From assembly GCA_001804025.1 (NCBI GenBank), contig MHFC01000131.1:301-19373 (forward strand): 19,073 bases of DNA, read 5' to 3'. Positions 2,213 to 19,018 of this stretch are shown in pieces. The notes beneath the pieces are model-generated. The model did not search any database. It had not been told where the DNA came from and saw only the letters and a list, made by a program, of their open reading frames with translations. The position numbers and the translations under genes are program-made. Position 1 is the first letter of the stretch. The number at the start of each line of letters is the position of its first letter. The stretch comes from Omnitrophica bacterium GWA2_52_8 (GTDB lineage: Bacteria > Omnitrophota > Omnitrophia > Omnitrophales > Aquincolibacteriaceae).

Positions 2213-2405
2213 CTAACCCGCATTTCTCATCACTAATGAGAAATGCCCTCGCGGAGGCTGTGATGCAAATGGGCTTTTTCATTTGTACCTCAGGGGTTGT
2301 CTTTTGCGCCCTGTTAAAACGCGGGCGCAAAACTTTGGATGCAACCCCATGCGTCCAAAGCGGTTTTCTTATCGATTCACCTAATCGATGAGAAAACCGG
2401 ACTAA
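2213..2405 (+). repeat. 193-bp structured dispersed repeat, copy 1
   Basis: This block matches 11213-11405 at 185 of 193 positions without gaps, in the same orientation; the flanks are unrelated. On the plus strand it folds as H1 2220-2230/2236-2246 (11 bp perfect), a small CCTC/GAGG stem 2247-2257, H2 2266-2271/2280-2285 (6 bp), H3 2302-2311/2323-2332 (10 bp perfect), H4 2333-2342/2351-2360 (10 bp with one G-T), and H5 2361-2377/2383-2399 (17 bp with one T-G). The loop of H4 (AACCCC, 2343-2348) is complementary to GGGGTT at 2293-2298, which would form a pseudoknot enclosing H3. There are no terminal inverted repeats, no obvious target duplication and no T-tract after H5. The frame open on the minus strand through both copies changes amino acids at most differences, so I do not call it coding. 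Function is unknown: a non-autonomous mobile element or a structured RNA are the main options. Confidence 0.85.
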
Positions 2406-4626: not shown

Positions 4627-4713
4627 AGTACCTGTCTGGCATTTAATTTTTGTGGGAAGACGGTACTTTGCCCGTTCGAAATGGCAACGCCCACTTACAA
4701 GCGTCAAGACGCA
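4627..4713. repeat. Modular hairpin repeat, short copy
   Basis: The right block, 4653-4713, matches 18950-19010 at 54 of 61 positions; the left block, 4632-4650, matches 18871-18889 at 17 of 19. The blocks are only two bases apart here but 60 bases apart in the other copy, which carries two extra hairpins between them. A closing stem AGTACC-GTCT (4627-4637, one bulged T) with AGACGGTACT (4658-4667) is present. The 10-bp stem that is perfect in the long copy (CGCTTGAAAT/ATTTCAAGCG) is degraded here. Confidence 0.6.
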
Positions 4714-4785
4714 TTAGCAGGTTTTTTTATAAGGTGACAAGTCCTGTACGGCGTTCCAATTCATCACAATTAAAATGATCAGGTG

Positions 4786-11212: not shown

Positions 11213-11405
11213 CTAACCCGCATTTCTCATCACCAATGAGAAATGCCCTCGCGGAGGCTGTGGTGCAAATGGGTTTTTTCATTTGTCCCACAGGGGTTGT
11301 CTTTTGCGCCCTGTTAAAATGCGGGCGCAAAACTTTGGATGCAACCCCATGCGTCCAAAGCGGTTTTCTCATCGATTCGCCTAATCGATGAGAAAACCGG
11401 ACTAA
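11213..11405 (+). repeat. 193-bp structured dispersed repeat, copy 2
   Basis: This copy has the same orientation and length as 2213-2405 (185/193 identical). The stems are H1 11220-11230/11236-11246, H2 11266-11271/11280-11285, H3 11302-11311/11323-11332, H4 11333-11342/11351-11360 and H5 11361-11377/11383-11399, with the GGGGTT (11293-11298) to AACCCC (11343-11348) pseudoknot option. H5 is perfect over 17 bp here because position 11370 is C, where copy 1 has T opposite G. The other seven differences lie in loops or linkers. It sits between the lipoate ligase stop and mrpE, 170 bases before the mrpE start. Confidence 0.85.
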
Positions 11406-11462
11406 CGGAATTTTCATTTAGCATGTGCTTTTGCGAAACCCGTTTTTATATTAATAACTGAG

Positions 11463-11552
11463 CTTTTGCAAAATGGCCGGCGCCCATAGGGGCAGTGAAA
11501 TATTGAGTGTCCCCTATGGAAAGCACGCCGCCGGCTGGCCATTTTGCAAAGG
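11463..11552 (+). repeat. Nested inverted repeat in the mrpE leader
   Basis: The outer arms 11463-11478 and 11537-11552 pair over 16 bp with a single T-G pair (core TTGCAAAATGGCC with GGCCATTTTGCAA, 13 bp perfect). Inside, CCATAGGGG (11484-11492) pairs perfectly with CCCCTATGG (11511-11519). GC-rich GCCGGCG and CGCCGGC segments offer alternative pairing between the two stems. It ends ten bases before the mrpE Shine-Dalgarno. It could be a leader RNA switch, a transcription attenuator without a T-tract, or a small palindromic insertion. Confidence 0.6.
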
Positions 11553-11575
11553 TTCTGTTAATAAAGGACTTAGCA

Positions 11576-18869: not shown

Positions 18870-19018
18870 ACCGTCTGACATTTAATTTTACCGGCGCTTA
18901 TGCGCCAGTACTCAGCGTGTTGGACTAGATGTCCGACTACGCTGATGTATGGGAAGACGGTACTATACCCGCTTGAAATGGCAACGCCCAATTTCAAGCG
19001 TCAAGGCGCACTGGCGCC
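18870..19018. repeat. Modular hairpin repeat, long copy, after the antiporter operon
   Basis: The element begins two bases after the last antiporter stop. A closing stem ACCGTCT (18870-18876) with AGACGGT (18955-18961) encloses GGCGC/GCGCC (18893-18897 and 18902-18906) and a long hairpin 18912-18925/18931-18945 with one bulged T. After it come a perfect 10-bp stem 18970-18979/18991-19000 and a second GGCGC/GCGCC hairpin (19005-19009 and 19014-19018). Parts of it recur at 4632-4713. It could act as a 3' end structure for the operon, but no T-tract follows. Confidence 0.65.

Follow-up and report, generated by a model that had tools for sequence, protein, structure and literature searches.

A dispersed 193-nt hairpin element of Omnitrophica bacterium GWA2_52_8, probably a MITE moved in trans by an IS1380-family transposase

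The window, that is the whole stretch of 19,073 nt that was analysed, carries two copies of a 193-nt sequence at 2213-2405 and 11213-11405. They are 96% identical, align without gaps and differ at exactly the eight positions given in the initial annotation. The element itself is 189 bp long and is accompanied by a 4-bp target duplication of the form YTAR. Its inverted ends of 15 bp read CCCGCATTTCTCATC and TCCGGTTTTCTCATC. The following features were assigned.

2213..2405, plus strand: element copy 1, with CTAA duplicated at each end
11213..11405, plus strand: element copy 2, with CTAA duplicated at each end
2213..2216 (copy 2: 11213-11216), no strand: left target duplication CTAA, from the left/right agreement of CTAR in 42 copies and from empty sites
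2217..2231 (copy 2: 11217-11231), plus strand: left terminal inverted repeat CCCGCATTTCTCATC, shared without change by the IS1380 element L320
2387..2401 (copy 2: 11387-11401), minus strand: right terminal inverted repeat, which on this strand reads TCCGGTTTTCTCATC
2402..2405 (copy 2: 11402-11405), no strand: right target duplication CTAA, from the left/right agreement of CTAR and from empty sites
2215..2298 (copy 2: +9000), plus strand: first half of the predicted fold, with hairpins H1 at 2220-2246, H2 at 2247-2257 and H3 at 2258-2293, and closing stem 2215-2219/2294-2298
2299..2402 (copy 2: +9000), plus strand: second half of the predicted fold, with hairpins H4 at 2302-2332, H5 at 2333-2360 and H6 at 2361-2399, and closing stem 2299-2301/2400-2402

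A search of the host genome with this sequence, as the initial annotation had proposed, gave many more copies than two. The host assembly (G000, a MAG of 2.2 Mb that is 82% complete) has at least 54 matches, of which 41 measure 191-194 nt, with 40 of 116 candidates scored and copy 2 of the window absent from the 41 matches listed. The pattern of the ends, with one mismatch or fewer, occurs 145 times in G000, which at two ends per element amounts to a burst of roughly 70 copies. It occurs 146 times in G041, 31 times in G033, 15 times in G038, once in G011 and not at all in G006. The reversed control gave no match in these genomes and a single one, in G012, among 11 genomes of a further pattern search. 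The element also has shorter and longer forms: four copies of 51 nt, consisting of both ends only as one hairpin, are among the stretches fetched from G000, a form with two extra hairpins exists in G033, and forms with two and about four extra hairpins in G038.

Context is readable for 56 copies in G000, of which 50 lie between predicted frames and six inside one according to simple frame calls; for five of these six the frame is short (91-187 aa). Neighbours are divergent in 14 pairs and convergent in eight, and same-strand neighbours show no orientation preference (13 versus 14). The element is gene-less, high in copy number, mostly intergenic and bounded by terminal inverted repeats, as is expected of a MITE. 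One older copy (L089, 1041-1233, contig C132 of G000) is situated in frame inside an open frame of 697 aa, and its minus-strand frame is open. The net insertion there is 189 bp or 63 codons, about 63 added residues. When 35 homologues were compared, nine aligned two residues or fewer to the inserted stretch, seven of these matching on both sides, and the other 26 aligned through part of it.

The predicted fold has energies of -92.6 and -102.2 kcal/mol for the two copies (z -10.1 and -12.6), and none of 200 shuffles was as good for either copy. In L003, a near-consensus copy, it consists of six hairpins (11, 4, 15, 13, 11 and 17 bp) arranged as two branched halves with closing stems of 5 and 3 bp, and has 158 paired positions. 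The five hairpins with about 108 stem positions described initially do not include the lower part of the third hairpin, a further hairpin or the two closing stems; this lower part is half of that hairpin. The statement that all differences between the copies preserve the fold was wrong, as five of the eight are in stems of the L003 fold and three break a pair. Seven differences had been placed in loops or linkers; 2234, 2274 and 2379 are indeed unpaired, but 2263, 2287, 2290 and 2320 are in stems. The pair is broken at 2263 and 2290 in copy 1 and at 2287 in copy 2, and it is kept at 2320. The eighth difference, 2370, keeps its pairing in the L003 fold just as described. Two closed halves are predicted in G000 and G033; in G041, in its second type L215, and in G031, the ends pair together instead.

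Between lineages, the hairpins covary. Among eight representatives, drawn from six genomes, two-sided change with the pair kept affects 28 of 70 pairs (49 cells), while 500 shuffles averaged 11.5 pairs and never reached 28, and slid versions of the structure gave 2-7. The alignment was fitted to a covariance model, so it leans towards the fold, and the value of 95.6% paired cells is flattered by this. Such two-sided changes were found in each of H1, H3, H4, H5 and H6 (helices 2, 4 and 5-7 of the counted structure), i.e., the covariance model that had been called for reveals covariation with one fold, a property of structured RNA families, in H1 and H3-H6. The counted structure is without H2 and both closing stems; H2 is replaced in it by a four-pair alternative, 86% paired and with no two-sided change. 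By eye, the outer pair of H2 is C-G in G000 and G033, and G-C in L215, G038 and G006. Pairs were counted in alignment A4 (eight chosen sources), since the first hairpin of L215 is misaligned in A2. A4 was fitted to model R1, which itself was built from A2. Copy 1 of the window, L091, L069, L097, L131 and L134, all present in A1, were left out of A2, and G041 is represented there by nine of its 30 aligned copies and by L215 as the tenth row; A3 (55 matches, both strands) was not counted. With a covariance model from 14 members and strict filters, the element was recognized in seven of 384 sampled genomes of the phylum, one of them weakly.

Resident copies of one genome lose pairs as freely as expected. 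Among 42 copies in G000, stems contain 22 of the 28 private changes, versus a stem fraction of 0.84, and seven of these 22 keep the pair, versus about 8.4 expected. Private single changes in G041 produced 12 G-U and 13 A-C. When both genomes are taken together, the pair is kept in 17 of 33 shared variants versus 21 of 73 private ones (p 0.03, with kinship of copies ignored); this is a weak test (p 0.053 for G041 and 0.33 for G000 when each is taken alone), and it counts changes in G000 and pair states in G041. We read this as constraint in transposing lineages and neutral decay in resident copies afterwards. The proposal of the initial annotation that selection or copying acts on structure holds between lineages (28 of 70 pairs), but not in the eight differences on which it was based, three of which break pairs.

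The 42 full-length copies from G000 are nearly identical and lie at unrelated sites. The tetranucleotides to their left and right are CTAA/CTAA in 33, CTAG/CTAG in seven, CTAG/CTAA in one, and CTAA/CCAA in one. Left and right match in full in 40 of the 42 copies and at the last base in 41 (Fisher p 3e-7). L039 contains a pair of copies, separated by 281 nt, with two rare variants in common, yet one is flanked by CTAG/CTAG and the other by CTAA/CTAA; both ends switched together with the site, as target duplication demands. Empty sites with a single tetranucleotide are readable in other repeats, in L017 for the insertion of L021, in L015 (TTAG) for L077, and in L077 for L029. Other empty relatives have a differing base at the site: CCAT in L036, CTTG in L157, CCAA in L017 (for L032) and CGAG in L022 (for L018). 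A duplication of fixed length, also typical of MITEs, is thus found in G000 from these 40 of 42 copies and from the empty sites, and it is off at one base in six of 30 copies in G041. The left end of the G041 copies is TTAG in 28, and the right end is TTAG in 24 and TTAA in six. Copies L116, L117, L123, L131, L133 and L134 have TTAG at the left but TTAA at the right, which is not predicted by a simple 4-bp duplication. Among the matches listed from outside Omnitrophica, 34 stretches have a partner end at a distance of over 40 nt, and 23 of these 34 have YTAR at both ends. In these 23 pairs, the tetranucleotide is identical in 16 and differs in seven; left and right share their last base in 21 (Fisher p 5e-4) and their first base in 17 (p 0.07). 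Duplication of 4 bp is therefore the rule, with exceptions that are only partly explained. Insertion without duplication of the IS200/IS605 type was set aside, given the agreement of CTAR at left and right in G000 and the joint switch in the L039 pair.

The ends of the element were recognized on an IS1380 transposon. L320, from a genome of the host's own bacterial family (G026), is a complete IS1380-family element, 1,733 bp long, with TTAG on both sides and CCCGCATTTCTCATC at each end. Its transposase of 468 aa scores 377.6 bits to NF033539 IS1380. G026 has these two ends and no others with one mismatch or fewer, and is without any 193-nt element. L209 from Planctomycetota has a frame of 647 aa between two such ends (PF13701, 418.9 bits; NF033539 IS1380, 332.1 bits), with TTAG at the left, CTAG at the right, and one mismatch in the right end. 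In L252 from Acidobacteria, a homologous frame, cut by the contig start, lies beside one end preceded by GTAG. The MITE has in common with the IS1380 family (NF033539, PF13701) these ends, identical in L320 and in L209 apart from the one mismatch, and the YTAR target; unlike these transposons, it is gene-less and only 19-20 bp at the ends are common to it and L320.

PF13701 is above its cut-off in 14 of 384 Omnitrophota genomes, and when these 14 IS1380 loci, one per genome, were screened, the ends of the element were present in L320 only. At 11 of the 14 loci, inverted ends of whatever sequence that are flanked by a 4-bp duplication were also sought. L322 and L323 have ends of another kind, L330 has weak pairs, and the other seven besides L320 show no clear inverted ends. 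None of the six element-bearing genomes has an IS1380 gene (PF13701) above the cut-off and G031 has none either, so that element and enzyme were not found in the same genome with this profile; the host has a weak match of 20.9 bits versus a cut-off of 34.7. Since the host MAG has no IS1380 gene above the cut-off, we infer as mobiliser a donor IS1380 enzyme that is absent, lost or unassembled there.

The 18-base end TARCCCGCATTTCTCATC is present in at least 99 contig stretches of a genome collection with 84,980 species, and the 80 titles listed span many phyla. By our own arithmetic, about 15 would be expected by chance with random, equal bases. An inverted partner within 400 nt accompanies the end in 39 of the 99 listed stretches versus 3 of 81 control stretches. 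Because of this number, spread and pairing, elements with these ends may be frequent and have gone unnoticed. An end-like pattern occurs in 12 stretches of viral contigs, which were screened for paired ends, and no relatives of the 193-nt sequence were found in plasmid and phage collections at E 1e-5. L218, L253, L197 and L260 (Chlamydiae, Planctomycetota) are 181-188 nt long and have the same ends, but fold mostly as one long rod and not as a chain.

The repeat is probably a MITE moved in trans by an IS1380-family DDE transposase, with hairpins kept in transposing lineages and decaying neutrally in residents; we give this reading a probability of roughly 85%. One of the two identities offered in the initial annotation, a non-autonomous mobile element, agrees well with the 4-bp duplication, the inverted ends, the empty sites and the IS1380 element with the same ends. 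An IS1380-family DDE transposase would recognise the ends CCCGNNTTTCTCAYC and insert the MITE at YTAR with duplication of 4 bp. The source element of this transposase would have been lost, or it may be missing from the incomplete assembly. The interior of the MITE is a chain of hairpins and does not derive by shortening from the IS that was found. Base pairs would be preserved by compensatory change for as long as a lineage transposes, and resident copies would then decay neutrally.

The other identity offered, a family of structured non-coding RNA genes whose folded transcript is functional and whose dispersal is secondary, is improbable. The strong fold and the covariation speak for it, as do 31 G-U versus 8 A-C cells in the plus-strand fold of the eight representatives, a count biased by the derivation of the structure from the plus strand; against this, private changes in G041 have G-U and A-C in nearly equal numbers, and residents lose pairs as freely as expected. 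No Rfam family reaches its gathering score, and at E up to 1 copy 2 matches only a microRNA family, with scores far under its cut-off. The patchy occurrence (seven of 384 genomes) likewise argues against an RNA gene. A role in transcription or processing was sought in the gene context and was rejected, as same-strand neighbours are without orientation bias. A REP/REPIN-type element moved by a Y1 transposase (RAYT, IS200/IS605-like) that recognises hairpins near a tetranucleotide would account for the hairpins near both ends, the conserved tetranucleotide and the 51-nt hairpin-only copies, and the central stretch of the element is complementary to both ends in the manner of a guide. The host and the six other genomes tested that carry the element, whole or in part, all have Y1 genes, but so do genomes that lack the element. 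The ends of the element flank none of the 19 Y1 loci examined. Target duplication, empty sites and an IS1380 element with these very ends make such an origin very unlikely. A truncated element (L177, 1319-1399, contig C87 of G000) is embedded in part of a Y1 transposase frame, and a complete Y1 gene with inverted repeats of its own directly adjoins it as a separate unit; the truncated element has only one end, and this too does not favour Y1.

Another DDE family with a YTAR-like target might move the MITE, and such a target preference is known for the IS701 and IS5 groups. A DDE_5 element in G038 (L149, 1248-2777, contig C4), which we take to be IS701-like, has CTAG on both sides, so this target is not unique to IS1380. 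Its ends (TTTTACTGTCTGAGTT) differ from those of the MITE, and 30 PF01609/PF13546 loci show the end pattern only with 3 or 4 mismatches and scattered; a mobiliser from another DDE family seems hardly probable. The transposase families searched were PF01609, PF13546, Y1 and IS1380. PF01609 and PF13546 transposases in six genomes were without these ends as flanking pairs, as were the Y1 genes, and were rejected as mobilisers.

The structure of the MITE may be upheld by selection in transposition, by copying of palindromes or by an RNA role. Most likely, the hairpins would help transposition in cis, e.g., as folded single strands or cruciforms. There is perhaps one chance in a few that they are instead kept by copying, through hairpin-templated repair of palindromes, and not by selection; the two-sided changes in all five counted hairpins and the extra hairpin modules in the long form of G033 and the forms of G038 are consistent with this. 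Private changes in residents are uncorrected, so correction would act only during or before transposition. A more specific idea, which we hold only tentatively, is that the chain of hairpins takes part in transposition in cis, the IS1380-type DDE enzyme choosing its substrate by folded strand and end sequence, and that the central stretch may serve both ends and the target as a splint or guide. This stretch is GGGTTGTC together with CTAR ends (G000, G033, G038 and copy L237 of GWA2_47_8) and GG(G)CTTATC together with TTAG ends (G041 and G031). The former pairs with AACCC on the left and GAC on the right, the latter with AGCCC and, with one wobble, GGT. The central stretch tracks the type of the ends, so the closing stems would stay paired via two-sided changes; G006 does not fit this rule, and the two states may stem from a single change. 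If read as a guide, a central U permits the left target base to be A or G, which is the case in G000, and a central C only G, which is the case in G041.

Small structured gene-less MITEs are a well-known kind of bacterial element. Their transcripts have been described as folding into long stem loops (PMC2229807). Pneumococcal RUP, which is linked to IS630-Spn1, resembles the present element in being small, gene-less and intergenic, in its hundred or so copies and in its link to an IS via ends and target; unlike it, RUP depends on another transposase family and a TA target, and no chain of six hairpins is described for it in the available text (PMC2229807). The CIR elements of Caulobacter also have more than one stem-loop arm instead of one end-to-end palindrome, but they are two-armed with a linker (PMC2229807), as opposed to six to about ten hairpins and IS1380-type ends here. 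Rickettsia palindromic elements (PMC10969869, PMC2229807) are likewise palindromic and can be inserted in frame into genes, here seen in one case (L089), while the insertions here are mainly between predicted frames; in-frame insertions of RPE are described in the accessible part of PMC10969869, where IS1380 is unmentioned. GTAG REP sequences of the RAYT system share hairpins with a conserved terminal tetranucleotide (PMC3733652), but in the present case no Y1 gene is flanked by the ends and the target is duplicated.

The IS1380 element IS1247 is described with a 5-bp duplication (PMC3281130), so not all members of the family duplicate 4 bp. IS1380 was presented as the prokaryotic outgroup of piggyBac (PMC10813416). 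One genome was reported to have both an IS1380 element and MITEs, and the consulted portion of that report gives no similarity of MITE to IS ends (PMC3542288). A link between IS1380 and MITEs was not found in the accessible portions of PMC4133298, PMC10813416, PMC3281130 and PMC3542288, nor in what was available of the open-licence literature on IS1380 with MITEs, duplication or non-autonomous elements, and the same literature, as far as accessible, gave nothing on MITEs of Omnitrophica. If the preferred reading is true, a patchily spread MITE family is tied to IS1380 transposases, and the difference between decay in residents and covariation between lineages makes the need of hairpins for transposon movement testable.

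Two other dispersed repeats were observed in the window. A second palindromic element of about 105 bp (11458-11562) starts 53 bp past the end of copy 2. It has 16 matches in the host over at least 80 of 105 positions, with the one in the window included and reverse-strand duplicates uncounted, and on contig C110 it and the 193-nt element lie directly side by side, with one copy of each. A repeat of 66 nt is present at 4653-4718 and 18950-19015 with 86% identity, and a stretch resembling it (GGGAAGACGG) flanks the insertion in L021.
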